Source: Microbispora hainanensis | GTDB lineage: Bacteria; Actinomycetota; Actinomycetes; Streptosporangiales; Streptosporangiaceae | Reading direction: 5' to 3' | Assembly (NCBI RefSeq): GCF_036186745.1 | Contig: NZ_CP108086.1 | Coordinates: 8,494,001 to 8,558,000, forward strand | Length of the DNA: 64,000 nucleotides | Shown here: in pieces, positions 4,181-47,691 of the stretch | How positions within the stretch are numbered: the first letter of the stretch is position 1 | Layout: each line of letters begins with the position of its first letter | The notes under the pieces: model-generated | What the model saw: the letters and a program-made list of their open reading frames with translations, nothing else | What the model was told of the DNA's origin: nothing | Databases searched by the model: none | Position numbers and translations under genes: made by a program

Positions 4181-4222
4181 GGTTCAGGGCAGGTTCAGGG
4201 CAGGTTCAGGGCACGGTTCAGG
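4181..4222. repeat. 11-base tandem repeat containing the stop codon of the USP gene
   Basis: GGTTCAGGGCA is present three times (4181, 4192, 4203), followed by a variant CGGTTCAGG. Read on the minus strand, every unit contains TGAACC, and the first of them is the true stop codon (4220-4218) of the universal stress protein gene. Confidence 0.85.
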
Positions 4223-5078
4223 ACGCAGACGGGGACCGTACGACGGCGACGGGGCACTCGGCGTGGTGCAGCACTCCCCTGCTGACCGAGCCGAGCATCG
4301 CCGAGCCCACCGCGCCCCTGCCGTGGGAGCCGACCACGAGCAGGCCCGCCGCGCGTGACGCCTGGACGAGCGCGTCGACCGGATGCCCGTAGGCGAGCTC
4401 CTCACGCACCGGCACGTCGGGATACCGCTTCCGCTGGTCCGCCGGTTTCTCGCGCGTGACGCGCTGATGTGCCTCGCGCACCTCTTCCACGTCATAGGTG
4501 ATCTCGGGCGCGAGCGGATGGGCGGGCAGGTGCCAGGCGTGCACGGCCCGCAGCGTGGTGCCCTGTGCCCTGGCCTGCTCGAAGGCGTACGCCAGGGCGG
4601 GCTCGCATTCGGGCGAGTCGTCCACGCCCACCGCGATCTCCCCTCGCTCGCCGCTCCAGCCTGGCCGTACGACGACGACCGGGCAGGGGGCGTGCCCGGC
4701 GACGTTGGTGCTGACCGACCCGAGGACGATGCCGGCGAAGCCGCCCAGTCCCCGGCTGCCGAGCACGATCTCGACGGCCTCCTTGGCCTTGTCCCGCAGG
4801 ACGCGGGAGGGGATGCCCTCGATGATCTCCGTACTGACCTTGACGTCCGGCTGCCGTTCGCGGGCCACGGCCTCGGCGGCGGCCAGCGCCCGCTCGGCGT
4901 GCGCGGTGAGCGGGTCGCCGCCCGAGGTGGGGAACTTCGGGATGCCGTAGGCCCAGTGGTCCACGACCGAGACGAAGCGCAGCGGGCAGCCGCGGCGGGC
5001 GGCGTCGTCCGCGGCCCACCGCACGGCGGCCGTCGCGGCGGGCGAACCGTCGGTGCCGACGATGATCGGGCCGGACAT
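4218..5078 (-). CDS. Universal stress protein, two tandem USP domains
   Basis: 286 aa from the ATG at 5078, which follows GGAAGGAGCGCCC. An in-frame start 21 bases upstream lacks such a site. Domain 1 spans about residues 2-140 and domain 2 about 148-283. Each ends in an ATP-binding loop: GSRGLGGFAGIVLGS in the first and GSHGRGAVGSAMLGS in the second. Double-domain, ATP-binding USPs are typical of actinobacterial stress and dormancy responses. It lies between hsp20 and a DUF1876 gene, a stress-type neighbourhood. Confidence 0.93.
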   Translation of the reverse strand: MSGPIIVGTDGSPAATAAVRWAADDAARRGCPLRFVSVVDHWAYGIPKFPTSGGDPLTAHAERALAAAEAVARERQPDVKVSTEIIEGIPSRVLRDKAKEAVEIVLGSRGLGGFAGIVLGSVSTNVAGHAPCPVVVVRPGWSGERGEIAVGVDDSPECEPALAYAFEQARAQGTTLRAVHAWHLPAHPLAPEITYDVEEVREAHQRVTREKPADQRKRYPDVPVREELAYGHPVDALVQASRAAGLLVVGSHGRGAVGSAMLGSVSRGVLHHAECPVAVVRSPSAS

Positions 5079-5235
5079 GGGCGCTCCTTCCTTCCTCACC
5101 GGCCTTCCGGCCTGGAGCCCTTCTCCATGTGACCACCGGCGGCCATGGCCCTCCAGGGTCGTAGGTCCTCAGCCCGGGGCCGCTGCCGGAGCCACTCGGC
5201 CGAGAGGGATGCTGGAGTCCTGGAGGTGGTCCGAC

Positions 5236-5505
5236 ATGGAATCGAAACGCTGGACCGTCGAAATCTTCGTCAACGAGGACGACAACGACGACGTCACCAC
5301 CGCGACCGCCGTGCTCTACACGCCCGCGGGACGACGCCACGAGAGCGTCGGCCGAGCTCGCCGCAACCCGGCCGACCGGCCCGTGCCCGAGATCGGTGAC
5401 GAGCTGGCGGCCGGACGGGCCCTCGCCGACCTGGGGGCGAAGCTCATCGGGGACGGCGCGGAGGACGTGGCGCAGCTCGCCGGTCCCGCCTACGAGTCGT
5501 ACTGA
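5236..5505 (+). CDS. DUF1876 (dsRBD-like fold) protein
   Basis: 89 aa; GGAGGTGGTCC precedes the ATG. It begins KRWTVEIFVNEDD and ends with an ALADLGAKLIGDGAEDVAQL helix, the pattern of DUF1876 proteins. These small actinobacterial proteins have unknown function and often sit near stress genes. Here it diverges from the USP gene across a 157-base gap in which I see no clear operator. Confidence 0.85.
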   Translation: MESKRWTVEIFVNEDDNDDVTTATAVLYTPAGRRHESVGRARRNPADRPVPEIGDELAAGRALADLGAKLIGDGAEDVAQLAGPAYESY

Positions 5506-5515
5506 GACCGTGGCC

Positions 5516-5564
5516 CGCTCTCCGGCGGCGGCCTGTGCCTGCCGGAGGACGCCGCCGGAGAGCG
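5516..5564. terminator. Hairpin terminator after the DUF1876 gene
   Basis: CGCTCTCCGGCGGCG (5516-5530) and CGCCGCCGGAGAGCG (5550-5564) pair perfectly over 15 bases around a 19-base loop, 10 bases after the stop codon. Confidence 0.8.
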
Positions 5565-5643
5565 GACCTGTAGCGGAGAGCCGGCACCCGGGGGCTCCGC
5601 CGGAGTCCCCCGGGAGTCCACGCCCCATGCCCTCGTTCCACGC

Positions 5644-5808
5644 CGTCGCAGTGCACGGCGTCGCATCACACGGCGCCAAACCGCACGGCGTCACATCACA
5701 TGGCGTCACAGTGCACGGCGTCACATCACATGGCGTCACAGTGCACGGCGTCACATCACATGGCGTCACAGTGCACGGCGTCACATCACATGGCGTCACA
5801 GTGCACGG
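5644..5808. repeat. Tandem array of eleven 15-base half-units
   Basis: From 5689 to 5808 there are four identical 30-base units, each made of two related 15-mers, CGTCACATCACATGG and CGTCACAGTGCACGG. Three degenerate 15-mers precede them (5644-5688). Because the unit is a multiple of three, all six frames stay open or stop in step. The minus strand gives TPCDV/TPCTV pentapeptides. I found no start site that makes this a convincing gene. It lies 20 bases past the stop of the subtilase gene. Confidence 0.95.
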
Positions 5809-5827
5809 CGTCTTACATCTCGGTGTG

Positions 5828-8008
5828 TCATTCCGCGGGGTCGGCCGGGTCGTCGCCGAGGAGCCCAGCGGCCCGCATCTCCTCCCTCAGCCAGGCCATG
5901 GCGGCCTGCTCGCCTCCGGCCGGGCCGGTCCCGCCGGCCGGCGTGCCGTTGGCCGTACGGGGAGGCCCCGGGACGTCGCCCGCCGCGCGGCCAGGCGTCC
6001 GGCCCCCGCCGGGTCCGATGGCGTACGGGCGGTCGGCGGCCGTCCCCCCGCGCTTGCCCCGGCTTCCCGTGCCGCCCCGGCCCGTTGACGACGAGGTGCC
6101 GCCGGTCGACGTGGTGCGCCCGCGCCGGCCCCCGGTGACGAGACCGCCGGGCACCGGCCCGTTGGGCGAGGCACCCACGCCGTACGCGGCCTGCGGGGCC
6201 ATGCCGGGCTGCGCCCCCGGGCCCGCCTGGCCGTCCTGGCCCGTGTGCCCGGCTTCGCCGTCCGGTCCCCCGGCCGCCGGCACGAGCAGTCCCGCGCCGG
6301 TCATCTCGGCGGTGAGCTGACCGAGCAGCGTGCCGGCCTCGATCGGCTCCGGCGTGATCTGCGCGAGGGCCGGGGCGAGGGCGCGCAGCGCGTTCGGCAT
6401 CCCCGCGCCGGTGCGGTGGAGGTCGCCGAGGTTCAGCGGCACGCAACTCGACTTGATGATGTGGAAGAGGTGGTCGACCCGCCGTGCGTCCCGTCCGCTG
6501 AAGGGGCCGCGGAAGTCGCCGTGGTGGGCGAGCACCAGGGCCGCGAGGCCGGCGACGTGCGGCGCGGCCATGGAGGTGCCGTCCAGCGCGGCGTACCCGT
6601 CCGGCGGTACGGCCGACAGGACGGCCACACCCGGGGCGCACACGTCGATCTCGGGACCATGACAGGTGAAGCGCGGCGAGAAGAAGCCGTCACCCGTCAC
6701 CGGCCCGCGGATCTCGGCCTCGTGGGCGGTGCCGGGCGGGAACGCGTCCGCCTTGCCGACGGCCGCGACGGTCAGCACGCCCGGCAGGATGCCCGGGAAG
6801 CCGACCGGCCCGCCGTCGTTGCCGGCGGCCACCACGCACGCCACCCCCGCCTCGCGCGCCTGGTCGATCTTCGCGGCGACGAGCGGCGAATGATGCCTGC
6901 TCGCCAGGCTCAGGTTGACGACGTCGATCCGCTGCTCGACGCAGTAGTCGAGCGCCTCGATCAGGTCGCTGAACCGCCCGCCCGGGAAGATCTTGCAGAC
7001 GTGCACCTCGGCCTCGACGGCGAAGCCGACGACACCGCGGCCGTCGTCGGCCCCCGAGACGACGGCCGCGCAGTGGGAGCCGTGGTAGGCGGCGTCGACG
7101 GACCAGCCGTCCGGCTCGCCGCCGACGAGGTCGACACCGGCGTGGACGCGGTCGCGCAGGTCGGGGTGCCGTACGTCGGCCCCGGAGTCGATGATCGCGA
7201 TCCTGACCCCCGCGCCGCGCAGCGTGGGCGGCAGGCGGTCGAGGTTCATCGCCTGCTGGCCCCAGCCGAAGACCTGCCTGCCGGGGAACCCGGCGAAGGT
7301 CTCCGACAGGCGTACCGGCTCGATCAGGTTGTCCCGGGTCGTGGACAGGGCCGGGCGGTCGATGTGGACGCTCCAGTAGCCGGAGCGCGGCCGGACCGTC
7401 ACCCCGTTGATCGACTCCGGAGTCTCCCCGACCACCGTGATCACCGCGCGGCCGTCGGCCCCCGTGGACGTCTGGGCGGGCCAGCCGTGCCCGGTCACCA
7501 GGATGCTCGCGCCGGGCAGCGGCGTGCCGTCCGCGTCCCTGACCAGGAAGGTGAACGTGCTCTCCACGCCCGGCGGCACCACCGCCGGGGCGGACCGCCG
7601 CCTGCGCGGCGGCTGGGGCACGTCGCTGTAGGTGAGGAGCCGGTCGCGTTCGAAGTAGAGCTGCGGATACTGCCGCCGCAGTGCCTCGACGTGCTCCGCG
7701 GTCATCTCCGCCACGACCACAGCGGGGAACCCGGGAGCCTGAGCCCCCGGGTTCCCCGCCGTTCCCCGCAGGCGGCGCAACACGCGCACCTCGGGGTCGT
7801 CCTCCAGAAGCCTGCGCACCGTGTCGCCGTCGAGAGCCGGCACGGCCGCTCCCGGCGCCGCCGGATGCGGCTGGGGCAGCGCGGCCACCATGTAGCGCCG
7901 TGGCCGGGGCTCCACCGGCTGCGGCGCCTGACGGGACGCCTGCCGCCCCCGCGGGGACGCCGGGCGCGGCTCCTCGCTTCCGTCCTTGGGCTTGTCGTTA
8001 CTGGTCAC
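5828..8008 (-). CDS. S8 subtilisin-like serine protease without signal peptide
   Basis: 726 aa from a GTG start. The catalytic triad is visible: Asp274 in AIIDSGADV, His309 in YHGSHCAA and Ser479 in LDGTSMAAPHVAG, with the oxyanion Asn397 in AAGND. Residues 150-220 resemble a carboxypeptidase-regulatory or Ig-like domain. The N-terminus is polar, with no signal peptide or membrane segment, so the enzyme is probably cytosolic unless exported by another route. Residues 590-690 are Gly/Pro/Ser/Arg-rich low-complexity sequence, followed by a short C-terminal helix. It is the third gene after the Gln-rich protein and the 97-aa helical protein, which may be its partners or substrates (inference). 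The 157-base gap to the 97-aa gene holds a hairpin. Confidence 0.88.
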   Translation of the reverse strand: MTSNDKPKDGSEEPRPASPRGRQASRQAPQPVEPRPRRYMVAALPQPHPAAPGAAVPALDGDTVRRLLEDDPEVRVLRRLRGTAGNPGAQAPGFPAVVVAEMTAEHVEALRRQYPQLYFERDRLLTYSDVPQPPRRRRSAPAVVPPGVESTFTFLVRDADGTPLPGASILVTGHGWPAQTSTGADGRAVITVVGETPESINGVTVRPRSGYWSVHIDRPALSTTRDNLIEPVRLSETFAGFPGRQVFGWGQQAMNLDRLPPTLRGAGVRIAIIDSGADVRHPDLRDRVHAGVDLVGGEPDGWSVDAAYHGSHCAAVVSGADDGRGVVGFAVEAEVHVCKIFPGGRFSDLIEALDYCVEQRIDVVNLSLASRHHSPLVAAKIDQAREAGVACVVAAGNDGGPVGFPGILPGVLTVAAVGKADAFPPGTAHEAEIRGPVTGDGFFSPRFTCHGPEIDVCAPGVAVLSAVPPDGYAALDGTSMAAPHVAGLAALVLAHHGDFRGPFSGRDARRVDHLFHIIKSSCVPLNLGDLHRTGAGMPNALRALAPALAQITPEPIEAGTLLGQLTAEMTGAGLLVPAAGGPDGEAGHTGQDGQAGPGAQPGMAPQAAYGVGASPNGPVPGGLVTGGRRGRTTSTGGTSSSTGRGGTGSRGKRGGTAADRPYAIGPGGGRTPGRAAGDVPGPPRTANGTPAGGTGPAGGEQAAMAWLREEMRAAGLLGDDPADPAE

Positions 8009-8119
8009 AAACGTCTCGACTCTCCCCAGCTCAGGCTGGTGTGGCCGGCCGCGCCCCGTGGGGGCACGAACGGCAGTTCAGGCTCTGTCATCACATTTCG
8101 CCGGTCTCGGGACGGCGGG

Positions 8120-8150
8120 GGCCCGGACCGGCCGCCGACCGGTCCGGGCC
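8120..8150. terminator. Hairpin between the 97-aa gene and the subtilase gene
   Basis: GGCCCGGACCGG (8120-8131) and CCGGTCCGGGCC (8139-8150) form a 12-base perfect stem with a 7-base loop and no U-run. It could attenuate read-through into the protease gene, setting a lower protease dose than for the two small proteins. Confidence 0.55.
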
Positions 8151-8165
8151 ACCGAGGTGATCACG

Positions 8166-8459
8166 TCACAGCAGTGGAACCATGGGCCGTCCGGGGGCGA
8201 CGGCGCCGAGCGCGAACTGGATCTGCGCCAGGCACGCGTCGTACCTCCCGGCCCGGTACAGCTGTACCGCCTGCACCAGCAGCGGGACGATCCCCGCGAC
8301 CTGGGGCGCCTGCGGGAGTGACGCCTGCAGCCAGCCGTACAGCCGCTGGAGCGTCATGGCGCAGTGCGCCTGAAGCGGCGCGACCGGCGCCGGATGCCCC
8401 ATCGCGACTCCCACGGCCGGGGGCGTCACCGGACCCATCCCGGGACCCATCGACTCCAC
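8166..8459 (-). CDS. Small helical protein of unknown function (97 aa)
   Basis: The GTG at 8459 is chosen because GGAGGAACACC lies directly upstream; the frame is open 27 bases further but would overlap the gene before it. The first 30 residues are Met/Gly/Pro/Ala-rich. The rest looks like two or three helices, with VQAVQLYRAGRYDACLAQIQFAL resembling one TPR-like hairpin (about residues 62-84). Two cysteines are present. I know no family for it. It starts 13 bases after the stop of the Gln-rich gene, so the two are surely co-transcribed. Confidence 0.7.
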   Translation of the reverse strand: MESMGPGMGPVTPPAVGVAMGHPAPVAPLQAHCAMTLQRLYGWLQASLPQAPQVAGIVPLLVQAVQLYRAGRYDACLAQIQFALGAVAPGRPMVPLL

Positions 8460-8472
8460 GGTGTTCCTCCGA

Positions 8473-9090: not shown

Positions 9091-9127
9091 ATTCACTCCT
9101 TCGGAGCCAGTAGGTCCGACCCATCGC

Positions 9128-9171
9128 CGATGTGATTACATCGCGTGACAGATCCGTCGCACAACGTTATA
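9128..9171 (-). promoter_or_regulatory. Palindrome and -10-like box upstream of the Gln-rich gene
   Basis: CGATGT-GATT-ACATCG (9128-9143) is a perfect 6+4+6 inverted repeat in the presumed 5' leader. TATAAC on the minus strand (9171-9166) could be the -10 box. The whole 9091-9241 gap is AT-rich compared with its surroundings. Confidence 0.4.
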
Positions 9172-13179: not shown

Positions 13180-13361
13180 TGCTGCTGCGCGAGGTGCGGC
13201 CGCACACCGGCCGGCGGGAGCCGGCATCACCGGCCCGGCAGCGTGACGCGGAGCACCGTGAAGGAGTTCCGGAGGCTCGGCAGGTGCGGGGTGTTCGCAA
13301 CTGCGCCGCCCCAGCTCTTGTCGAGATGCTGCGACGGGTTTTTCGCGCCATCGTGGGTGCC

Positions 13362-14633
13362 ATGAGCCGGCGACAAGTCACCCCCGGGCATGGACATGGC
13401 CACGGACACGAGCACGAGCACGGACACGAGCACGAGCACGGACACGGCCATGGGCATGGACACGAGCACGGGCACGGCCATGGGCATGGGCATGGACGCG
13501 GTGCGGCGGCGCTTCGTGCACGGATGGCGCACCTGCTGCGCCCCCACTCGCACGAGCACGCGGACAAGATCGATTCGGTGATGGAGTCGTCCGCCCGGGG
13601 GATGCGGGCGCTGTGGGTGTCGCTGGCCGGTCTCGGCGCGACCACGGTGGTCCAGGCGGCCGTGGTGGCGCTGTCGGGGTCGGTGGCGCTGCTGGGCGAC
13701 ACCCTGCACAACGCGGCCGACGCCCTGACCGCCGTGCCGCTCGGGATCGCGTTCCTGCTCGGCCGCCGTCCGCCCACCCGCCGCTACACCTACGGCTACG
13801 GGCGGGCCGAGGACCTGGCGGGCGTCGTCATCGTCGTGACGATCGCCGCCTCCTCGATCGCCGCCGCGTACGCCGCGATCGGACGGCTCCTGGAGCCGCG
13901 AGAGGTCTCCCACCTGGGGGCCGTCGCGGCGGCGGCGCTCGTGGGCTTCGCCGGGAACGAGCTGGTCGCCCGCCACCGCATCCGGGTCGGGCGTGAGATC
14001 GGCTCGGCCGCCCTCGTCGCCGACGGGCTGCACGCCCGCACCGACGGCTTCACCTCACTGGCCGTCCTCGCCGGAGCCGGAGGAGCGGCCCTCGGCTGGA
14101 CCTGGGCCGACCCCGCCGTCGGCCTGCTCATCACGGTCGCGATCCTGATGGTGCTGCGGCAGGCGGCGCGTGAGGTGTACCGGCGGCTGATGGACGCCGT
14201 CGACCCCGCTCTCGTGGACCTCGCCGAGGCGACCCTGCGGGGCACGCCCGGCGTGCTCGGCCTGGGCCAGGTGCGGCTGCGCTGGATCGGTCACCGGCTC
14301 AGGGCCGAGTGCGAGGTCGTCGTCGATCCGGCCGCCACGGTGGTGGAGGCGCACCGGGTCGCGGCCGAGGCCGAGCACAACCTGATCCACGCCGTCCCCC
14401 GGCTGACGGCCGCGATCGTGCACGCCGATCCGCTGCCTCACGACGGCGTGGACCACCACGCCGTCCTCGACGGCCATCGCCACGATCGACCCCACGTTGG
14501 CGGCGACGGCCACCGGCGCGACCGTCCTCCGGCCGGCCTCGGGGGCCACCGGCACGACCAGCCCTCGGCCGGCCTCGACGGTCACCGGCACGACCATTCC
14601 CCGGCCGGTGTCGTCCGGCACCCCGCCGGCTGA
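13362..14633 (+). CDS. Cation diffusion facilitator (CDF) metal transporter, His-rich ends
   Basis: 423 aa from the ATG at 13362; an in-frame ATG at 13326 is possible and neither has a strong ribosome site. Residues 9-45 are alternating Gly/Glu-His (GHGHGHGHEHEHGHEHEHGH and onward). The membrane part (about 80-300) carries the CDF metal sites GDTLHNAADAL and GLHARTDGF. A cytoplasmic domain follows, and the last 55 residues contain a second His-rich region built of GHRHD repeats. CDF proteins exchange Zn, Co or Fe for protons. The His-rich ends would bind metal; the ion is not determined. Confidence 0.92.
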   Translation: MSRRQVTPGHGHGHGHEHEHGHEHEHGHGHGHGHEHGHGHGHGHGRGAAALRARMAHLLRPHSHEHADKIDSVMESSARGMRALWVSLAGLGATTVVQAAVVALSGSVALLGDTLHNAADALTAVPLGIAFLLGRRPPTRRYTYGYGRAEDLAGVVIVVTIAASSIAAAYAAIGRLLEPREVSHLGAVAAAALVGFAGNELVARHRIRVGREIGSAALVADGLHARTDGFTSLAVLAGAGGAALGWTWADPAVGLLITVAILMVLRQAAREVYRRLMDAVDPALVDLAEATLRGTPGVLGLGQVRLRWIGHRLRAECEVVVDPAATVVEAHRVAAEAEHNLIHAVPRLTAAIVHADPLPHDGVDHHAVLDGHRHDRPHVGGDGHRRDRPPAGLGGHRHDQPSAGLDGHRHDHSPAGVVRHPAG

Positions 14634-15967: not shown

Positions 15968-17202
15968 CGCCGCCGATCGAGGCCGCCGTCGACCGGGCCT
16001 TCCGGGAGGAGTGGGGGCAGGTCGTGGCCACCCTCATCCGCTGGACCGGCGACTGGGACCTGGCCGAGGAGTGCGCGCAGGACGCCTTCGCGCTGGCCCT
16101 GCGCACCTGGCGGCGCGACGGCGTGCCGCGCAGGCCCGGGGCGTGGCTGACCACCGCCGCGCGCAACCGGGCGGTTGACCTGCTACGCCGCGAGGCCACC
16201 GGCGCGGCCAAGCTACGGGAGGTCGCGGGCGTGCTCAGGACGGGTGACGACGCCTTCGGCGACGACGAGCCGGACGTGCCGGACGACCGGTTGCGGCTGA
16301 TCTTCACCTGCTGCCATCCGGCGCTCGCGCTGGAGGCCAGGGTGGCGCTGACCCTGCGCACCCTGGCCGGGCTCGGCACGGCCGAGATCGCGCGTGCGTT
16401 CCTGGTGGGGGAGCAGGCGATGGCCAAGCGGCTGGCCCGGGCCAAGCAGAAGATCAGGCATGCGGGCATCCCCTACCGGGTGCCGCCCGCCCACCTGCTG
16501 CCCGAGCGCCTCCCGGCGGTGCTCGCCGTGCTCTATCTGCTGTTCAACGAGGGCTACTCGGCGACGGCCGGCGCCGACCTCGTACGGCACGACCTCGCGG
16601 ACGAGGCGATCCGGCTGGCCCGGGTGCTGGTGCGGCTGATGCCGGACGAGCCGGAGGCGGCGGGCCTGCTCGCGCTGATGCTGCTGCACCACGCGCGCCG
16701 CGCCGCCCGCCTCGACGAGGCCGGCGACCTGGTGGTGCTGGAGGACCAGGACCGCGGCCGGTGGGACACCGCCCAGATCGCCGAGGGCGTGTCCCTGCTG
16801 GACGGCACGCTGCGACGGGGGCGGCCCGGCCCCTACCAGGTGCAGGCCGCCATCGCCGCCTGCCACGCCACGGCGGCCCGCCCGGAGGACACCGACTGGG
16901 CGCAGATCGCCGTCCTGTACGAGCGGCTCGCCCGGTTGGTCCCCTCGCCCGTTGTGGAGCTGAACCGCGCCGTCGCGGTCGGCATGGCGTACGGCCCGGC
17001 CGCGGGCCTGGCGCTGGTCGACGCCCTGCGGGAAACGGGCGCCCTGGCCGGCTATCACCTGCTGCCCGCCGCCCGCGCCGACCTGCTGCGCCGCCTGGGC
17101 CGTACGGCCGAGGCCGCCGACGCCTACCGGGAGGCGGCCGGTCTGGCCACCACCGAGGCCGAGCGCCGCTACCTCGCCCGCCGCCTCGCCGCCCTCGGCT
17201 GA
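15964..17202 (+). CDS. ECF sigma factor, ECF42-like with C-terminal extension
   Basis: 412 aa, roughly twice a minimal ECF factor. Region 2 is seen as WDLAEECAQDAFALALRTW with LTTAARNRAVDLLRRE, and region 4 as LRTLAGLGTAEIARAFLVGEQAMAKRLARAKQKI. The 200-residue C-terminal part (DUF6596/TPR-like, containing LYLLFNEGYSA) is typical of group ECF42, where it is needed for activity and replaces a classical anti-sigma factor. GTG start overlapping the DGPF gene supports that assignment. Confidence 0.92.
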   Translation: MTPPIEAAVDRAFREEWGQVVATLIRWTGDWDLAEECAQDAFALALRTWRRDGVPRRPGAWLTTAARNRAVDLLRREATGAAKLREVAGVLRTGDDAFGDDEPDVPDDRLRLIFTCCHPALALEARVALTLRTLAGLGTAEIARAFLVGEQAMAKRLARAKQKIRHAGIPYRVPPAHLLPERLPAVLAVLYLLFNEGYSATAGADLVRHDLADEAIRLARVLVRLMPDEPEAAGLLALMLLHHARRAARLDEAGDLVVLEDQDRGRWDTAQIAEGVSLLDGTLRRGRPGPYQVQAAIAACHATAARPEDTDWAQIAVLYERLARLVPSPVVELNRAVAVGMAYGPAAGLALVDALRETGALAGYHLLPAARADLLRRLGRTAEAADAYREAAGLATTEAERRYLARRLAALG

Positions 17203-17244
17203 GCGCGCCGGTTGAAGCCGCCGGCTGACGGCGTCGGCTGGACG

Positions 17245-17348
17245 GCCCGGGCGTCAGGCCCGGGCGTTAGGCCCGTGCGCCAGGCCCGTGCGCCAGGCCC
17301 AGGTGCCGGACCCGGGTGTCAGGCTCAGGTCTCAGGCTCAGGTGTCAG
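17245..17348. repeat. Eight 13-base tandem repeats reaching into the next stop codon
   Basis: Units such as GCCCGGGCGTCAG, GCCCGTGCGCCAG and GCTCAGGTGTCAG run with a 13-base period. The last one contains the stop codon (17347-17345) of the minus-strand TIM-barrel gene. Read on that strand, TGA recurs in many of the units. Confidence 0.85.
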
Positions 17349-18388
17349 GCTCGGTAGCAGTCCGCCAGGGCCGCGAACGCGGCCTTCGGTTCCCAGGGCA
17401 TGCCGGGGTAGGCCGTGCCCTGGCGGTCCTCCAGCACCTTCACCACGCCGCAACTGGCCATGTCGAAGTCCGTACGGGGATCGTCCCGGTGGGGCAGGTC
17501 ATACCGGGCGAAGGTGTACCAGAAGGCGGCGTACACTCCCTCGTCGTCGAGGATTCCCAGCACCTCGCGGAGATAGGCCGCCTGCTCGTGCTCGTCGCGG
17601 ACATGGTCGCCGGTCAGACCGGCCGGCGCCCCGTCCTTGCCCCACTCGACGATCGAGTCGCCGCGCTCGCCCAGGTCGGCCGCGCCACGGTGGGTGACAC
17701 AGCCGAACTCGGTGATCGCCACCGGCTTGCCCTGCGCCTTTCCCTGTGCGACCAGGGCGCGGATGTTGTCCCGATAGTGGGCCGCGGTGGCGGCCGACCG
17801 ATAGCCGGCGTCGGTGGCGATGACGTCGAAGGGCGTCCAGTCCACCTGTTCGAGAGGAATCGAGCAGTAGCCGATCCGGCCGCCGAACCGCTCGCGGGCG
17901 ACCGCGACCGCCTCACGGAGGAAGGCGTTGACGCGGCCGGGCAGCAGGGGGAGCGCCTCGCGCAGGGTCTCCGGCCGGGCCAGCAGGGGCATCCGGTCCG
18001 CGAACGTGGCGCCGGGCAGGAACCCGTCGGTGAACAGGCTCACCTCCGAGCCGGTGGCCAGCACGACCTCGGCGCCCTCGCGGCGCAGCCGCTCGGCGTG
18101 CTCGGCGCAGTCGGCGATCACGGCGAGCAGCTCGGCGGTGGTGATGTCGCAGGCGAACGGGCACAGCCAGACGTCCAGGCCGGCGGCGGCGGCGCGGGTG
18201 GCCGCCGCCTTGAGCCGTCCGGGGTCGCCGCCCGTGATCCGTACGGCGGTGCAGTGCAGATCCTCACGGATGACGCGCATCTCCCGTTCGACCACGTCGA
18301 GGTCGAACGGCTCCCGGGTGCTGCGCCCGGCGGCGCGGGCGGCCGCGTCCGCGAAGCCGGTGTCGAAGTTGATGCCCTTGCCGTTCAT
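17345..18388 (-). CDS. TIM-barrel glycoside-hydrolase-like protein
   Basis: 347 aa with no signal peptide. It begins GKGINFDTGF and contains LHCTAVRITGGDPGRL, GSEVSLFTDG (possible acid/base Glu) and VAITEFGCVTHRGAADL (possible nucleophile Glu), the layout of a clan-A hydrolase barrel. I recall similar actinomycete proteins being labelled abortive infection protein in databases, a label without mechanism. The start codon overlaps the stop of the TetR gene (ATGA), so regulator and enzyme form one operon. Confidence 0.7.
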   Translation of the reverse strand: MNGKGINFDTGFADAAARAAGRSTREPFDLDVVEREMRVIREDLHCTAVRITGGDPGRLKAAATRAAAAGLDVWLCPFACDITTAELLAVIADCAEHAERLRREGAEVVLATGSEVSLFTDGFLPGATFADRMPLLARPETLREALPLLPGRVNAFLREAVAVARERFGGRIGYCSIPLEQVDWTPFDVIATDAGYRSAATAAHYRDNIRALVAQGKAQGKPVAITEFGCVTHRGAADLGERGDSIVEWGKDGAPAGLTGDHVRDEHEQAAYLREVLGILDDEGVYAAFWYTFARYDLPHRDDPRTDFDMASCGVVKVLEDRQGTAYPGMPWEPKAAFAALADCYRA

Positions 18389-20005: not shown

Positions 20006-21304
20006 ATGTCGTCCCACCCCGCTTCCGTCTCCGGAGCCGTCGCCCCCGACCCGCTGATCAGGAAGCACCGCACCGCGGGTGCCACTCTCACCGTGAGCGC
20101 GAACGGCGCGCCCCTCGCCGGCCAGGAGGTGGTCGTCGCGCAGCGCCGGCACAAGTTCCTGTTCGGCTGCATCGGGTTCGACTTCATTCCCCTGGCCAAC
20201 GGCGAGACCACCACGGACACCGGCGGGCGGCCGTCGCTCGGCGAGGCTCCGGCGGCCGGATCCCAGCAGGTCGCCGACCTGTGGTTCGACCTGTTCAACT
20301 TCGCCACGCTGCCCTTCTACTGGGGACAGTTCGAGCCGGTCCGGGGCCGGCCGAACACCGAGCGGCTGCTCACCACTGCGCGGTGGTTCGCCGACCGCGG
20401 CGTCGTCGTCAAGGGCCACCCGCTCGCCTGGCACACCGAGACCGCCGGCTGGCTGATGGACCTGTCGAACGCCGAGATCGCCAAGGCCCAGGTGGAGCGG
20501 ATCCGGCGCGAAATGACCGACTTCGCCGGCGTCATCGACATGTGGGACGTCATCAACGAGGTCGTCATCATGCCGATCTTCGACAAGTACGACAACGGCA
20601 TCACCCGGATCTGCCGGGAGATCGGCCGGATCCCGATGGTCCGCATGGTCTTCGACGCGGCCCGCGAGGCCAATCCCCACGCCACGCTGCTGCTCAACGA
20701 CTTCGACATGTCCGCGGCGTACGAGTGCCTGATCGAGGGCGTACTCGAGGCGGGCATCAAGATCGACGTACTCGGCCTGCAGAGCCACATGCACCAGGGC
20801 TACTGGGGCGAGGAGAAGACGCTCGCGACGATCGACCGCTTCGCGCGGTATGGCCTGCCCATCCACTTCACCGAGACGACGATCGTCTCCGGCCACATCA
20901 TGCCGGAGGAGATCGTGGACCTGAACGACTACCAGATCCCCGAGTGGCCGACCACGCCCGAGGGCGAGGCCCGCCAGGCCGACGAGGTCGTGCGTCACTA
21001 CAAGACCCTGCTGTCCCACCCGGCCGTGGAGGCCATGACCTACTGGGGCCTGTCGGACGGCGGCTGGCTCGGCGCGCCGGGCGGCTTCGTCCGCGCCGAC
21101 GGCACCCCCAAGCCGTCGTACGACGCGCTGCGCTCGCTCATCAAGGGCGAGTGGTGGCTGTCTCCGACGACGATGGTCACCGACGCGGACGGCCGGGTCC
21201 GGTTCGACGGCTTCCTCGGCGAGTACGAGATCACGGCCGGCGGCCGGACGGTCACGTTCACGCTGGACGAGCCCGGAGACGCCAACGTCTCCGTGTCCCT
21301 CTGA
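20006..21304 (+). CDS. GH10 family glycoside hydrolase (xylanase-like), no signal peptide
   Basis: 432 aa. An N-terminal beta segment (residues 22-55) precedes the GH10 barrel. The catalytic residues are Glu185 in WDVINE (acid/base) and Glu290 in IHFTE (nucleophile), and HPLAWHTE forms the substrate site. A short C-terminal beta domain follows (LGEYEITAGGRTVTF). GGAGG lies before the ATG. Without a signal peptide the enzyme should act in the cytosol, perhaps on imported xylo-oligosaccharides, unlike secreted xylanases. The stop codon is part of a 15-base tandem repeat. Confidence 0.92.
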   Translation: MSSHPASVSGAVAPDPLIRKHRTAGATLTVSANGAPLAGQEVVVAQRRHKFLFGCIGFDFIPLANGETTTDTGGRPSLGEAPAAGSQQVADLWFDLFNFATLPFYWGQFEPVRGRPNTERLLTTARWFADRGVVVKGHPLAWHTETAGWLMDLSNAEIAKAQVERIRREMTDFAGVIDMWDVINEVVIMPIFDKYDNGITRICREIGRIPMVRMVFDAAREANPHATLLLNDFDMSAAYECLIEGVLEAGIKIDVLGLQSHMHQGYWGEEKTLATIDRFARYGLPIHFTETTIVSGHIMPEEIVDLNDYQIPEWPTTPEGEARQADEVVRHYKTLLSHPAVEAMTYWGLSDGGWLGAPGGFVRADGTPKPSYDALRSLIKGEWWLSPTTMVTDADGRVRFDGFLGEYEITAGGRTVTFTLDEPGDANVSVSL

Positions 21305-21337
21305 GCCGTGTCCCTCTGAGCCGTGTCCCTCTGAGCC
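21293..21337. repeat. Three 15-base repeats that include the GH10 stop codon
   Basis: GTGTCCCTCTGAGCC occurs three times in a row (21293, 21308, 21323). The first copy holds the true TGA, and because the unit is 15 bases each later copy repeats the stop in frame. Confidence 0.95.
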
Positions 21338-21398
21338 CTGCCCCGGAAGGCCCGCTCTCGGGGCGGGCGGGTGACCTGCCCGGAAGCGGTCCATCGGC

Positions 21399-21457
21399 GT
21401 CAGGGACGGCGGGCGTTGTGGAAGCCGCCCGGTCTCCGGGGTCAGGGACGGCGGGCG
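21399..21457. repeat. Duplicated 3' end of the MarR gene
   Basis: GTCAGGGACGGCGGGCG occurs at 21399-21415 and again at 21441-21457. The second copy contains the stop codon and last codons of the MarR gene (minus strand), so the terminal segment was copied 42 bases downstream. Confidence 0.8.
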
Positions 21458-21918
21458 GCCGTTCCCGGCGCGAGGCGGCCGGCGAGGAATTCGAGCGCCG
21501 CGACGACCTCGGCGACCTGCGCCGGGTCGTCGGTGCCCAGCGCCGCGGCGAGGGGCCCCTCGATCCCGGCCGCCCGCACCGCCTCCACGCGCGCCGGCTG
21601 CCCGGGCGCCCGCTTGATCAGGACCCGGCGGCGGTCGGCCGGATCGGGGGCCGTCACGACCGCCCCGGCCTCCTTCAGCCGGGTGACGGCTCCCGACACC
21701 GCGCTCTGCGGCAGACCCGTGCGGGCCGCGATCTCCCCCACGGAGGTCTCCGGGTGGGCGCACAGGTCCGCGACGACCACCAGCACGGTCCGGACACTGG
21801 CGGCCTGCGCGGCCTTCGACGGGGTGACGTCCCCGACCGGCATGGCCTCTTCGCCGATCTTCATCAGGGTCCTGCCGAGCAGGAAGAGGTCGACTCCGTT
21901 CACCGCTTCACAATACAT
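21442..21918 (-). CDS. MarR family regulator
   Basis: 158 aa from the ATG at 21918. The winged-helix core is visible: VGEIAARTGLPQSAVSGAVTRLKEAGAVVTAPDPADRRRVLI, with the MarR wing DPADRRR. The N-terminal helix DLFLLGRTLMKIGEEAMP is kept only if translation starts at or before the GTG at 21894. No Shine-Dalgarno precedes 21918, and the start codon itself lies in the operator, suggesting a leaderless message. It diverges from the alpha/beta hydrolase gene. Confidence 0.85.
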   Translation of the reverse strand: MYCEAVNGVDLFLLGRTLMKIGEEAMPVGDVTPSKAAQAASVRTVLVVVADLCAHPETSVGEIAARTGLPQSAVSGAVTRLKEAGAVVTAPDPADRRRVLIKRAPGQPARVEAVRAAGIEGPLAAALGTDDPAQVAEVVAALEFLAGRLAPGTAARRP

Positions 21919-21942
21919 CAAACTTGATGCATCAAATTTGAT
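21917..21942. promoter_or_regulatory. Two adjacent MarR-type operator palindromes
   Basis: ATCAAACTTGAT (21917-21928) and ATCAAATTTGAT (21931-21942) are two near-identical 12-base palindromes two bases apart, one overlapping the MarR start codon. They sit 41 bases before the divergent hydrolase gene, so the regulator likely represses both. Confidence 0.8.
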
Positions 21943-21982
21943 GGAATATGGTCCGGATCATCCGATCCGAGAGGACGACCCC

Positions 21983-22804
21983 ATGAACGGCATGCTCCGC
22001 ACGAACGGCGCCGCCATCTACTACGAAGTGCACGGCACCGGACCCATGCTCCTCATCTCGCAGAGCGGGGAGGGCGACGCGGGCCGCACCGCCGACCTGG
22101 TCCGCCACCTCGCCGGAGACCACAGCGTCATCACCTACGACCGGCGCGGCCTGTCGCGCAGCAGCCTCGACGACCCCGGCCGCGGCGCGACCATGGCCGA
22201 CCACGTGGACGACGTCCACCGCCTGCTCTCCGCCGTGACCGACCGGCCGGTGCACATGCTCGGCTGCAGCTTCGGCGCGGCCATCGGGCTGCACCTGGCC
22301 GTCGAGCATCCCGAACGGCTCGCCACCCTGATCGCGCACGAGCCGGTGGTCCCCTCGCTCCTCCCCGTCGCCACCGAACGCGTCCGTCACGTACGCGAGC
22401 TGGAGGAGCTGCAGGACCTCTACCGTGAGCGCGGGCTCGCCGACACGGTCGTAAAGATCGCCGAGGTGCTGGGCATCGACCCCGTCGCCCAGGACACCGA
22501 GCCCGGGCTGACCCCGCTTGCGCTGGACGACCGGCGGCGGGCCGGCTTCGACTTCTTCATCCGCAACGACTTCACCGCGATCGCCCGCGACACGCTGGAC
22601 GTCGCCGCGCTCAGGGACACGCCGGTCCGCGTCATCCCGGCCTTCGGCCGCACCACGCCCCGGCACGTCTTCGACTACCGGTGCGCGCGGGAGCTCGCCG
22701 CGCTCCTCGGGGTCGAGGCGAAGGAATTTCCCGGCGGGCACAACGGCAACACCACACACCCCCGTGCGTACGCCGCGCGCATCCGCGAGCTGCTGCCCGG
22801 TTGA
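21983..22804 (+). CDS. Alpha/beta hydrolase
   Basis: 273 aa; GAGAGGACG precedes the ATG. The nucleophile elbow is atypical: MLGCSFGAAIGLHLA gives Gly-Cys-Ser-Phe-Gly, with Ser (about residue 93) in the usual place. The oxyanion/N-terminal strand reads YEVHGTGPMLLISQSGEGD, where the usual HG is replaced by QSG. The C-terminal His is in FPGGHNGNTTHP. The substrate is unknown. The tandem MarR operator suggests induction by a small aromatic or toxic compound. Confidence 0.85.
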   Translation: MNGMLRTNGAAIYYEVHGTGPMLLISQSGEGDAGRTADLVRHLAGDHSVITYDRRGLSRSSLDDPGRGATMADHVDDVHRLLSAVTDRPVHMLGCSFGAAIGLHLAVEHPERLATLIAHEPVVPSLLPVATERVRHVRELEELQDLYRERGLADTVVKIAEVLGIDPVAQDTEPGLTPLALDDRRRAGFDFFIRNDFTAIARDTLDVAALRDTPVRVIPAFGRTTPRHVFDYRCARELAALLGVEAKEFPGGHNGNTTHPRAYAARIRELLPG

Positions 22805-22938
22805 ACGGCGGAAGGTGCCGTCCCTCCACAATGGTGGCGAGACGGCTCCGTACGGACGTCAAAGGCAAGTGGACCGGCCCTGGGCTGCCCGGTGGCGCAC
22901 GCTCTTGACGTTGGATGACGCCGCGCTCTAAGTTGCTC

Positions 22939-25077: not shown

Positions 25078-25210
25078 CCCCGGCCCGGCTTCCCCGCCGC
25101 CGCCGTGTCGGCCGCGCGCCCGGCCGACACCCAGCGCCGTCGCGGCCGTCACGGCCCGCCGCAGGGGGGCCGGTGGGCGCGACCGCTCCGAACTACGCGG
25201 CGACAGGCCG

Positions 25211-25317
25211 CACGGAGACGGGCCACCCGGGGACGGTCCGCACAGAGACGGGCCGGGCCGCACGGAGACGGGCCACCCGGGGACGGGCCCCACGGAGACG
25301 GGCCACCCGGGGACCGG
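25211..25317. repeat. 26-base tandem repeat in an intergenic region
   Basis: CACGGAGACGGGCCACCCGG plus GGACGG occurs at 25211, 25261 and 25291, with a shortened variant at 25241. It fills most of the 261-base gap 25078-25338, which holds no gene. Confidence 0.9.
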
Positions 25318-25338
25318 CCTTGGGGCGAGGAGGTGTGG

Positions 25339-25988: not shown

Positions 25989-26414
25989 CTGGTCGCGGCG
26001 GTGGCGCTCTCGCTGCTCGCCATGCTGGTCGCGGTTCCGGTCACGGCCGTCGTGGCCCGGGTAGGCGGCGGCCCCGCCGACTGGGACGTCCAGCCGCTCT
26101 GGCTGCTCGGCTGGACCGGCGTGAACGTGCTCGTCGCCGCGCAGGGCCTCGCCCTCGGCACGCTGCTCCTCAACGCGCCCGCCGCGATCGTGATCAGCCT
26201 GTCCACGCCGGTCCTGTGGGCCGTCGTCGGCAGGCTCGGCTCGGCCGGTGCCGCCCTCGCCGAGTGGCTCGACCTCAACACCACCGCCGCCCCTCTCGCG
26301 AGTGGCGACATGACCTGGGGCGAGGGAGCCCGGCTCGCCACGTCGGCCGTCTTCTGGATCGCCCTGCCCATGGCCGCCGGCGTGGTCCGCGTGCTCCGCA
26401 AGGAGGTGGCCTGA
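25989..26414 (+). pseudogene. C-terminal stub of an ABC-2 type permease
   Basis: The frame LVAAVALSLLAMLVAVPV ... FWIALPMAAGVVRVLRKEVA contains three or four membrane segments and ends like an ABC-2 export permease of the kind encoded next to NarL-type two-component systems. The N-terminal half and any ATPase gene are absent. The homologous-looking part begins within a few bases of the response regulator start, with no start codon context before the GTG at 26001. Probably not a functional transporter. Confidence 0.6.
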
Positions 26415-26569
26415 CCTGCCGCGGCCCCGGCTACGGTCCGGCCGTGGGCTGCAGCCCGACGAGGAGCATGGCGATCGGCCTCCGCGGTCAGGTGCCTGAC
26501 CTGCCGCGCCCCGCCCGTGGCTACAGCCCGTCGAGAAGCATCGCGACGCGGTCGGTCTCCGCGGCCAGA
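26412..26569. repeat. Degenerate direct duplication of a gene 3' end
   Basis: The segment 26497-26569, which holds the last codons and stop of the winged-helix gene plus its downstream sequence, recurs with changes at 26412-26492. Shared blocks include TGACCTGCCGCG, CAGCCCG and CTCCGCGG. The outer copy overlaps the stop of the permease stub. Confidence 0.65.
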
Positions 26570-44207: not shown

Positions 44208-44213
44208 GGAGAC

Positions 44214-44219
44214 AGCCTA
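44214..44219 (-). promoter_or_regulatory. Candidate leaderless -10 box of the DesK-type operon
   Basis: TAGGCT on the minus strand ends six bases before the kinase ATG. No Shine-Dalgarno site exists in that gap, which fits a leaderless transcript. No -35 box is clear. Confidence 0.45.
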
Positions 44220-44608
44220 GGGGCTTAACACGAGGTCAGGACACATGTGAAAGCGGGACAGACCCGGCGTCGCCCCCCGCCGGCGGGCGTGGCGGCGGCG
44301 CGCGGGGGTTCGCCGGCGGCGCCGGACAGGACCCGATGCGGCGCCGTGATGACGAACGCCTGCGCGCGAGAGATCGTCGTCATACCGTGTGGACGGCCAC
44401 CGGCAGATACACCTTGATCCGTACCACGCAAAGTCGGGACAATTTCCCCGATATTCCCATCAAATCGCATCCATCCCTTTCACCGCCGCCCGTACGGCGA
44501 CGCATGGCATGCCGCCGTTCCATATCACCGCGACCCACGAGTGAGCGGAGGACGGCGGCGACCGCAGGGCCGGCCAACCCGACTGCCCGCACGACAGAAA
44601 GGATCGTG
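44220..44608. other. Gene-free stretch with an AT-rich promoter region
   Basis: The divergent gap between the kinase and pntA. 44410-44470 is clearly AT-rich (TTGATCC, GACAATTTCC, GATATTCCC) and probably holds the pntAB promoter. No gene or palindrome is convincing. Confidence 0.5.
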
Positions 44609-46204
44609 ATGAGTCACTCAGCACAACGCCTGGGCGTGGTCGCCGAATCGGCGCCGGGCGAGACCCGGGTGGCGGCCACCCCGGCCACCGTCCCGCAGTT
44701 GGTCTCGCTCGGCTACGAGGTGATCGTCGAATCGGGAGCAGGCAGACGGTCGGGCTTCACCGACGACGCGTACACCGAAGCCGGGGCGCGGATCGCCGGC
44801 CGTGAGGAGACGTGGGACGCCGACATCGTGCTCAAGGTGAACGCGCCGACGGCGGACGAGATCACGGCCCTGCACGACGGAGCCACGCTCGTCTCCCTGA
44901 TCGGCCCGGCGGCCAACCCCGATCTGGTGGACGCGCTCGCGCGACGGCCGATCACCGTGCTCGCGATGGACGCCGTGCCGCGCGTCTCCCGCGCGCAGGC
45001 GCTCGACGTGCTGAGCTCGATGGCGAACATCGCCGGTTATCGCGCCGTCATCGAGGCGGCGCACGCGTTCGGGCGGCTCTTCACCGGCCAGGTGACCGCG
45101 GCGGGGAAGGTCCCCCCGGCCAAGGTCCTGGTGGCGGGCGCGGGCGTGGCGGGGCTGGCGGCCATCGCCACGGCGGCCAGCCTCGGCGCGATCGTGCGGG
45201 CGACCGACCCCCGTCCCGAGGTGGCCGAGCAGGTGCGGTCGCTGGGCGCGGAGTTCCTGGACGTCGGGGTCGTCCAGGCGGCGAGCACGGACGGGTACGC
45301 CCGGGAGACCTCGCGCGACTACGACCGCCGCGCCGCCGAGATGTACGCCGAGCAGGCCGCCGACGTGGACATCGTCGTCACCACCGCCCTGATCCCCGGG
45401 CGTCCCGCTCCCCGGCTGTTCACCGCCGAGCACGTGGCGCGCATGCGCCCGGGCAGCGTCATCGTCGACATGGCCGCCGCGCAGGGCGGGAACGTCGAGG
45501 GCACCCGGCCCGGGGAGGCGGTCGTCACCGAGAACGGCGTGACCATCATCGGCTACACCGACCTCGCGGGACGGCTGCCGGCGCAGGCGTCACAGCTCTA
45601 CGGCACCAACCTCGTCAACCTGATGAAGCTGCTCACCCCCGGCGCGGACGGCCGGCTCGTCCTGGACTTCGACGACGTCGTGCAGCGCGCTATGACCGTC
45701 GTCCGCGACGGCGAGAAGACCTGGCCGCCACCGCCCGTTCCGGTGAGCGCGGCACCCACGACCCCCTCCCCCACGGCCCCCGCGACCGACGCCTCCGCCC
45801 CGGGGCGGGGAACGGTGCGGGAAGCGGCCGCGGCTCCCGCCGGGCGACCGCCGTCGCCGCCCGGACGGCGACGCCATCTGGTCACCGCCGCCCTCGCCGT
45901 CGCGCTGTTCCTGCTGACCGCCTTCTCGCCGAACGCGCTGATCGAGCACCTCACCGTCTTCGTGCTGTCGATCGTGATCGGCTACTACGTGATCGGCAAC
46001 GTCCACCACGCGCTGCACACGCCGCTGATGTCGATCACCAACGCCATCTCCGGGATCATCGTGGTCGGCGCGCTGCTCCAGATCGGCCAGGGCCACGCGG
46101 TCGTCGCCGTCCTGTCGTTCGTCGCCATCCTGCTGGCGAGCATCAACATCGTCGGCGGCTTCGCCGTGACCCGGCGCATGCTCGGCATGTTCACGAGGAG
46201 CTGA
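44609..46204 (+). CDS. pntA: NAD(P) transhydrogenase alpha subunit
   Basis: 531 aa; AAAGGATCGTG precedes the ATG. Residues 1-380 form the NAD(H)-binding domain I, with [24 protein letters not shown] and the Rossmann loop [18 protein letters not shown] Pro/Ala/Thr-rich linker (about 380-430) leads to four membrane helices at the C-terminus ([22 protein letters not shown]). With PntB it couples hydride transfer from NADH to NADP+ to proton flow across the membrane. pntB follows two bases later. Confidence 0.95.
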
Positions 46205-46206
46205 CC

Positions 46207-47613
46207 GTGACCCTCTCCACGGCCGCGCAGGCCGCCTACATCGTCGCCGCCCTGCTGTTCATCCTCAGCCTCGCCGGGCTGTCCAAGCACGAGACCGCGC
46301 GCTCCGGGGTCGTGTCGGGCATCTCCGGCATGGTCATCGCGCTCGCCGCGACCGTCGTCCTCGCCGCGGACGGCTCCGCGGCCCTCGCGGTGGTCCTGCT
46401 CCTGGTCGCGATGGCGATCGGCGCCGCCATCGGGCTCTGGCGGGCCCGCATCGTCGAGATGACCGCGATGCCGGAGCTGATCGCCATCCTGCACAGCTTC
46501 GTCGGTCTCGCCGCCGTGCTCGTCGGCTGGAACGGCTTCCTTGAGGTCGAGAACGGAGGCGGGGCGCGGGCCGAGCTGCCCGGCTCGCTGCTGGGCGTCC
46601 ATCACGCCGAGGTGTCCATCGGCGTGTTCATCGGTGCGCTCACCTTCACCGGGTCGATCGTCGCGTTCCTCAAGCTGTCGGCCCGGATCGACTCCCGCCC
46701 GATGATGCTGCCGGGCAAGAACTCCCTGAACCTGGGCGCGCTCGGGGCGTTCGCGGTGCTGACCGTGCTCTTCGTGGCCTCCCCGAACCTCGGGCTGCTC
46801 GTCGCCCTGACCGTCGTGGCGCTGCTGCTCGGCTGGCACCTGGTCGCCTCCATCGGCGGCGGCGACATGCCCGTCGTCGTCTCGATGCTCAACAGCTACT
46901 CCGGGTGGGCGGCCGCGGCGTCCGGGTTCCTGCTCGACAACAACCTGCTGATCGTCACCGGCGCGCTCGTCGGCTCGTCCGGTGCCTACCTGTCGTACGT
47001 GATGTGCCAGGCGATGAACCGGTCGTTCATCTCCGTGATCGCCGGGGGCTTCGGCATCGAGGCGGGCCCCGCGGGCGACCGTGACTACGGCGAGCACCGG
47101 GAGATCACCGCCGTCGAGACCGCCGACCTGCTCAAGGACGCCAAGTCGGTCGTCATCACCCCCGGGTACGGCATGGCGGTCGCGCAGGCGCAGTATCCGG
47201 TCGCCGAGCTGACCCGCAGGCTGCGGGAGCGCGGCGTCGAGGTGCGCTTCGGCATCCACCCGGTCGCCGGACGCCTGCCCGGTCACATGAACGTCCTGCT
47301 CGCCGAGGCCAAGGTGCCGTACGACATCGTCCTCGAAATGGACGAGATCAACGACGATTTCGCCACCACCTCGGTCGTCCTCGTCATCGGCGCCAACGAC
47401 ACCGTCAACCCCGGGGCCGTCGAGGACCCGGACAGCCCCATCGCCGGGATGCCCATCCTGCGCGTGTGGGAGGCGGAGCACGTGATCGTCTTCAAACGGT
47501 CGATGGCCACGGGGTATGCCGGGGTGCAGAACCCCCTGTTCTTCCGGGACAACAGCAGGATGCTCTTCGGCGACGCCCGGCAGCGCGTCGAGGAGATCGT
47601 CTCCGCGCTCTGA
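46207..47613 (+). CDS. pntB: NAD(P) transhydrogenase beta subunit
   Basis: 468 aa; GTG start after GAGGAGCTGACC. The N-terminal half has about eight membrane helices with the [20 protein letters not shown] and [12 protein letters not shown] motifs of the proton channel. The C-terminal NADP(H) domain III shows [44 protein letters not shown] and [11 protein letters not shown]. Its stop codon is the first copy of a degenerate tandem repeat. Confidence 0.95.
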
Positions 47614-47691
47614 CCCGCGACCGCCGGACCTGCGATCGTTCCTGACCAGCGATCGTTCCTGACCAGCGATCGTTCTGACCTGCGACCGTCC
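47611..47691. repeat. Degenerate 17-base repeats beginning with the pntB stop
   Basis: Starting at the true TGA, units of the form TGACCNGCGAYCGTTCC follow one another about five times, each beginning with TGA or its variant. Three contain GCGATCGT. Confidence 0.8.

Follow-up and report, generated by a model that had tools for sequence, protein, structure and literature searches.

Why do short tandem repeats lie at the stop codons of several unrelated genes in one stretch of an actinomycete chromosome? The stretch is a 64,000-nucleotide window of Microbispora hainanensis (contig NZ_CP108086.1, positions 8,494,001 to 8,558,000), and a preliminary description of it had taken the repeats to be anchored on stop codons, proposing replication slippage at 3′ ends or selection for back-up stops or termination. 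We found that the repeat excess is a genome-wide property and that the window is not special. Our best reading, to which we give a probability of about 73%, is that the arrays are minisatellites born by slippage that gene 3′ ends tolerate, their load being raised in this genome and in its nearest relative.

The genome is a single contig of 71% GC, and its repeat load was surveyed in 60 20-kb stretches sampled from the core and the two arms, left and right (1.194 of 8.80 Mb). Arrays were defined by a Tandem Repeats Finder (TRF) score of at least 50 and genes by a home-made codon-usage caller with visible errors. The overlap of one stretch (L087) with the window was removed for the census and the analyses built on it, and retained for the between-genome counts. 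Repeats occupy 21.7% of 25,128 bases in spacers between convergent genes, 62 of 154 of which hold an array, 11.2% of 80,520 bases in co-directional spacers (76/459 with an array), 4.3% of 47,770 bases in divergent spacers (23/178) and 1.7% of coding bases. The window itself, with 29.9, 12.7 and 6.0% for the three spacer classes in the same order, is slightly rich and typical of the genome.

Neither base composition, nor gene calling, nor chromosomal location accounts for this pattern. Ten dinucleotide shuffles left only 0.31, 0.14 and 0.07% of the convergent, co-directional and divergent bases in repeats, about 70-fold below the real value for the convergent class, which rules out chance from composition. 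The class order persisted under strict filters on the flanking genes (23.2, 11.8 and 4.3%), so calling errors do not cause the class differences. The convergent load is similar in the left arm (19.7%), core (26.3%) and right arm (19.0%), against an effect of the chromosome arms.

The arrays favour the 3′ side of genes. They span 59 of 767 stop-side gene ends and only 8 of 815 start-side ends. The earlier suggestion that one process is common to unrelated genes is supported. When the spacers are 300–700 bp long, 14.8% of the 100 bp after convergent stops (n = 48 ends) and 23.1% after co-directional stops (n = 58) are covered, compared with 3.2–3.4% before starts. Thus, convergence by itself does not explain the pattern, and it is the 3′ end that counts.

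The spacers of 60–300 bp, covered after stops to 29.6–33.5% when convergent but 5.0–13.1% when co-directional, show the difference that would be expected if head-on transcription between converging genes caused the duplications, being mutagenic rather than permissive. However, the order of the two classes reverses at 300–700 bp. This reversal is expected if missing constraint, not collision, matters, so that a head-on origin appears very unlikely.

Is the stop codon itself the anchor? Inside the genes, coverage stays at 0.6–0.8% from 60 to 21 bases before the convergent stops and then rises to 3.5 and 9.7% in the last twenty. Past these stops, it reaches 14.9% in the first ten bases, 21–24% in the next twenty and 25–30% further out to about 150 bases, with no peak at the convergent stops in the sampled stretches. 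Over the 80 bases immediately before starts, coverage is 0.6–6.1%.

Random placement explains most of the spanning of convergent stops. The convergent arrays span them 30 times versus 24.4 expected with spacer and unit length allowed for (p = 0.055), in 28 of 70 arrays when counted by array (p = 0.17), and 7 times versus 8.9 expected in the spacers longer than 150 bp. These and the other unit-based tests used units up to 60 bp, that is, 70 of the 74 convergent and 94 or 95 of the 104 co-directional arrays. In favour of anchoring, the per-base density of array edges, uncorrected for spacer length, is 2–3 times higher from −20 to +10 around stops than at greater distances. Hence, the anchoring claim stands for the 3′-end concentration and for an excess of stop-spanning in co-directional spacers (weighed below), but not for the convergent stops, where no peak is found and the spanning is near random. 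The anchor is mainly the 3′ side of genes, plus something extra at stops in co-directional spacers that is not fully explained, and the stop codon is mostly a bystander.

The units are nevertheless rich in stop triplets. In convergent spacers, 43 of 70 carry TGA or TCA versus 17.2 expected. Of those touching a gene, 24/32 have TGA in the same orientation as the nearer gene, and of the 38 touching no gene, 16 carry either triplet (8 TGA and 8 TCA, with no sense bias) versus 7.3 in shuffles. The enrichment fades in the arrays at least 30 bp from both gene ends (5/16 versus 3.0 expected). The co-directional units hold sense TGA 28 times versus 10.2 expected and antisense TCA 6 times versus 9.5. 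The triplet signal is mostly the captured stop itself.

The same enrichment, together with the stop-spanning excess in co-directional spacers, could mean that the arrays are retained because every copy supplies a further stop behind the genuine one. In genes with stop-spanning arrays, the following stop in frame is indeed closer, at a median of 18 versus 53.5 codons (n = 59 and 558), as expected because the units carry TGA. In-frame back-up, however, needs units in multiples of three, and only 17 of 56 stop-spanning arrays have them. This, the missing sense bias in gene-free convergent arrays and the fading of the enrichment away from gene ends make selection for back-up stops unlikely.

Alternatively, the arrays may act as transcription terminators, as protectors of mRNA 3′ ends or as insulators between converging genes. 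Their location after stops, fullest between converging genes, and the greater length of convergent spacers here than in the compared relatives would suit such roles. Yet a search for perfect 8-bp stems with loops of 3–10 found just 3 hairpins inside the arrays of convergent spacers (0.55/kb) and 41 outside (2.10/kb), with 0.39/kb in shuffled sequence, so that under this search the arrays do not form the GC-rich hairpin of an intrinsic terminator. Among convergent spacers of at least 20 bp, hairpins outside arrays occur in 13/61 with an array and 21/69 without one, so the arrays neither need nor clearly replace hairpins.

Moreover, the inverted repeats at pntB and at the USP and subtilase genes, judged by eye, lie next to the arrays and are also kept by relatives that have no array there, although one relative (G003) keeps only one arm at pntB. 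The units share no common sequence, and an Rfam search of the window at the gathering score matched no array, its single match being a tRNA gene. All this concerns termination of the hairpin type and not of the Rho or structure-free types. Taken together, termination, protection or insulation by the arrays is unlikely.

The arrays themselves are contiguous and head-to-tail. The exact duplications peak at a period of 12–18 bp, and the units are mostly 12–21 bp with a median copy number of about three. Apart from a few of 7–9 bp, they fall within the size of minisatellite units (about 10 bp or more). The arrays are GC-rich (72–75%) and often imperfect. Only 4 pairs reach at least 85% identity among 166 units, versus 1 among shuffled units. 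Since the units are unrelated between loci, the arrays were born locally.

A dispersed mobile or palindromic family inserted at gene ends, such as REP/BIME (repetitive extragenic palindromic sequences and bacterial interspersed mosaic elements), MIRU (mycobacterial interspersed repetitive units) or a CRISPR-like element, would agree with the preference of REP-like families for extragenic 3′ positions. However, the units are locus-specific, rarely palindromic and joined head-to-tail without spacers, which makes a dispersed family extremely improbable.

The reading frame separates the arrays by location. Periods are divisible by three in 202/217 in-gene arrays versus 27/74 in convergent spacers, the mark of one process filtered by protein function. 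As to the birth itself, 84 exact duplications with fewer than three copies extend past the second copy by a mean of 5.1 bases, and 13 have no extension versus 42.3 expected. Among the 25 with clean flanks, 11 extend by at least 4 bases versus about 0.5 expected. These expectations rest on our assumed chance match rate of 0.27–0.29 per base. Such microhomology is what slippage between short direct repeats would leave, and replication slippage at 3′ ends, as the preliminary description proposed, appears the best mechanism.

The preferred account, tolerated minisatellites born by slippage, would run as follows. Units would arise locally by tandem duplication, most likely through replication slippage, and arrays would persist where harm is small, just downstream of stop codons. 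A duplication across a stop leaves the protein unchanged, so stops can be swept into arrays without being their main cause. Within genes, hardly any duplication would survive unless its unit length is divisible by three, and duplications close to starts would disturb promoters and ribosome sites. Later, the arrays would come to differ between species in unit and copy number, apparently as neutral sequence.

Comparison with related genomes, one per species, agrees with such turnover between species, as both the unit sequence and the copy number differ. The nearest relative, G012, was chosen without a tree by its pntB DNA identity (95%; G006 and G008 also reach 95% over shorter matches) and by protein identities at convergent pairs. 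Of 12 orthologous convergent spacers, 4 have an array in both genomes, 3 only here and 2 only in G012. Where both have one, the units and copy numbers are different, as at the USP and TIM-barrel genes. With G006, 10 such spacers have an array in both once, only here five times and only there once.

The convergent spacers are also longer here. Their summed lengths in bp, here and in the relative, are 1782/1351 (G012), 1500/755 (G006), 518/101 (G013), 1106/905 (G003), 517/216 (G008) and 391/214 (G009). The divergent spacers are level with three of these genomes (1628/1594 for G012, 1154/1182 for G006 and 880/852 for G008).

The load differs within the genus. An array is present in 63/155 convergent spacers of this genome, 17/45 of G012 and 14/98 of six other same-genus genomes (Fisher p = 6e-6 for this genome and 0.002 for G012, the relatives being sampled thinly). 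This nearly threefold share means that birth was raised or clearance reduced in the lineage that the two genomes probably form. Further out, the counts are 6/46 in Streptomyces with Actinacidiphila, 0/2 in Sphaerisporangium and 14/197 in other actinobacteria, a pool that excludes the former two groups. This outgroup grouping used 68 of 80 loci and omitted 12, 11 of them contigs of metagenome-assembled genomes (L171, L174, L175, L178, L179, L189, L217, L221, L228, L234, L243, L244). The Micrococcales are an exception with 17.9% of convergent bases in repeats, yet in only 2/29 spacers.

Several simple causes of the lineage difference were rejected. Draft assembly does not explain the low load of relatives, as G012, a draft assembly in about 250 contigs, has a high load and the single-contig G001 a low one (5/22 with its own codon model and 4/23 with that of this genome). 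Neither does GC content alone, as G040 has the same GC (0.71) and an array in only 1/25 spacers. Ku, scored for presence only, occurs in all 11 genomes checked, so its presence gives no reason for the difference by way of Ku-dependent end joining. NucS and exonuclease VII are both present in 15/15 same-genus genomes, against the loss of either.

It is possible, though we hold it only tentatively, that the lineage underwent a burst of tandem-duplication birth through changed polymerase, repair or recombination activity. Such a burst would jointly account for the near-tripling, within about 5% DNA divergence, of the proportion of convergent spacers that hold repeats, the longer 3′/3′ spacers and the extra pull at co-directional stops.

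Several observations weigh against tolerated minisatellites with a raised load. The co-directional arrays span the stop 21 times versus 10.8 expected, even with placement limited to the stop-proximal half (p = 0.001), and their units touching no gene carry sense TGA in 16/66 versus TCA in 5. This leftover is a mild hint of some influence at stops other than neutral placement. The co-directional spacers of 60–150 bp have no 3′ bias (5.0% after stops and 5.8% before starts), which would fit their need to hold a promoter or ribosome site. Periods divisible by three make up 48/104 of the co-directional and 14/26 of the divergent arrays, over a third in both, so that uncalled coding sequence may lie in some of these spacers. 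Of the 25 clean duplications, 9 have no microhomology (13.3 expected), and partly lost copies of larger arrays could mimic some of it elsewhere. The divergent spacers are also longer here than in three relatives (1149/451 bp for G013, 1051/764 for G003 and 435/291 for G009). Lastly, the in-gene load is not clearly raised, with 1.7% here, 1.8 and 2.7% in G012, 1.7% in G001 and 1.3% in G006. A general mutator would predict a raised in-gene load.

In the window, TRF and direct reading located all the repeats of the preliminary description, with corrections at pntB and the AlkZ-like gene (Table 1). Its seven sites fall in six spacers, all of them convergent (stop facing stop) by the codon-usage gene calls, a feature that it did not mention. 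At pntB, the 17-bp array is real, but the stop thought to belong to it lies outside, as the TRF array begins 13 bp downstream. The inverted repeat beyond the array, GGCCGGGAGG/CCTCCCGGCC, is also present in G006, G008 and G013. The duplicated 3′ end ascribed to a winged-helix gene, here called AlkZ-like, does exist as copies, but those reported by a repeat search carry the stop codon of the neighbouring plus-strand gene. The AlkZ-like 3′ end itself has a longer and more diverged copy, recognised by eye alone. At the subtilase gene, the plus-strand units carry TCA, that is, TGA on the minus strand, as had been described. The USP array was detected by TRF and missed by the repeat search with a 12-base minimum.

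Table 1. Repeats in the window and their counterparts in two relatives (window positions; ×, copy number)
Feature	Position	Unit or copies	Gene context	Detected by	Corresponding spacer in relatives
USP array	4181-4222	11 bp ×3.7	minus-strand USP gene 4218-5078; stop TCA 4218-4220 in last copy	TRF	G012, 17-bp ×4.4 array; G006, without array
Subtilase array	5639-5812	15/30 bp	convergent spacer of Rv2632c-like and subtilase genes; ends 15 bp from subtilase stop		G012, array present, unit similar yet different
TIM-barrel array	17196-17354 (13-bp array ×8.5 at 17244-17354)	13 bp	fills convergent spacer and extends past both gene ends; plus-strand gene ends 17202, minus-strand TIM-barrel-like gene ends 17345; stop 17345-17347 within last copies		G012, 74 bp with 26-bp-period ×2.3 array of 13-bp units; G006, 11 bp, without array
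GH10 array	21291-21337	15 bp ×3.1	GH10 stop 21302-21304 in first copy	TRF	array absent in G012 and G006
MarR direct copies	21395-21415 and 21437-21457	21 nt each, 42 bp apart	second contains MarR stop 21442-21444		
Additional array, not listed before	25198-25319	15/30/50-bp periods	convergent spacer	TRF	G012, none; G006, different 11-bp array
AlkZ-like spacer copies	26409-26427 and 26494-26512	19 nt, 85 bp apart	first contains stop of plus-strand neighbour		G012, 74-bp ×2.9 array
pntB array	47627-47689	17 bp ×3.8	between pntB stop 47611-47613 and inverted repeat	TRF	
Tandem duplication	57463-57530	35 bp ×1.9	convergent spacer		G012, single copy

Pfam supports the USP, Rv2632c-like, subtilase, GH10, MarR, AlkZ-like and pntB genes. 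The TIM-barrel gene has a below-cut-off GH113 match as its sole signal, and a Pfam search with the plus-strand neighbour of the AlkZ-like gene (26001-26414) gave no match. Among the matches listed for the pntB protein, which possibly omit very near genomes, the nearest is Sphaerisporangium melleum (87%), with Streptomyces species at 75–79%.

Gene calling erred visibly at two places in the window. The MarR region was merged into one plus-strand open reading frame (ORF), so the GH10 array was filed as co-directional in the census. For the comparison with relatives, the merged ORF was replaced by two minus-strand ORFs, and one of them (21932-22831) gave no match to Pfam and is unlikely to be real; the plus strand across it matches alpha/beta hydrolases. 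In the caller output, the minus-strand MarR gene and the plus-strand hydrolase-matching ORF overlap (21442-22804). Their arrangement resembles that of a head-to-head pair, and AT-richer short repeats occur close by. The caller also put a minus-strand gene without a Pfam match (13227-13559) over the start of ORF 13194-14633 on the plus strand, which by Pfam encodes a cation-efflux protein that includes a zinc-transporter dimerisation domain. This ORF holds an in-gene 6/18/36-bp repeat at 13385-13497, by eye a His-rich stretch.

Other features of the window lie outside the convergent spacers or concern no array. The gene ending at 48913 is followed, 1 bp after its stop, by an 18-bp ×7.9 array (48915-49054) that overruns the called start of the next gene by 22 bp. 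G012 and G006 have no array between these genes, which share 4 bp there, so what was a tight pair seems to have been separated here. A 13-bp ×9.2 array (56275-56393) is located between divergent genes, 23 bp away from a called start, as an exception to the 3′-end rule. It is missing in G012 and G006 despite similar spacer lengths (387, 331 and 372 bp), and is a candidate for promoter variation. The tRNA gene (61694-61765, minus strand) lies within the spacer 61408-61780, the plus-strand part of which reads by eye like what we take to be the end of a phage-type integrase. The genes flanking this spacer could not be located in G006, G013 and G003, whose pieces extend to this region; the pieces of G012, G008 and G009 end earlier.

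The arrays provide a clean natural readout of where a bacterial chromosome tolerates short tandem duplications, namely after stops far more than before starts. The contrast within the genus, about 40% versus 14% of convergent spacers, could let the genetic cause of repeat birth be mapped. They also offer many candidate typing loci and caution against inferring function from repeats at stop codons.

How do these arrays compare with known systems? REP/BIME elements are dispersed, palindromic extragenic units of one family at gene 3′ ends. The arrays here resemble them in being extragenic repeats at 3′ ends, but they form no single dispersed family, with the few similar unit pairs noted above, and are rarely palindromic (hairpins at 0.55/kb versus 0.39/kb shuffled). 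They also differ from CRISPR, being contiguous and having no unique spacers of similar length between repeats. Among the titles and abstract beginnings listed by full-text literature searches, nothing concerned minisatellites at 3′ ends or in convergent spacers of actinomycetes.

Bacterial minisatellites or variable-number tandem repeats (VNTRs) are head-to-tail units of about 10–60 bp with copy number and sequence differing between related genomes. The arrays here are like them in their head-to-tail, locus-specific units, with the variation seen between species only. Unlike the usual ones, they fill about a fifth of the convergent spacer DNA and occur genome-wide at 3′ ends, most strongly in two genomes of the genus.

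Small variable genome segments of E. coli and S. aureus are short variations between close genomes, part intergenic and part minisatellite (PMC2884548). That text uses neither ‘convergent’ nor ‘stop codon’. The tandem repeats of Borgs are reported to have units divisible by three within ORFs but in only 14–38% of the intergenic cases, and slippage is discussed for them (PMC9879509). The arrays here are similar, in-gene units being nearly always divisible by three and those in convergent spacers mostly not. However, the Borg repeats are described as perfect, A-enriched and carried by archaeal extrachromosomal elements (PMC9879509), whereas ours are often imperfect, GC-rich and placed after stops on a bacterial chromosome. 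Overall, the arrays of M. hainanensis appear to be mostly an ordinary mutational process seen unusually clearly.

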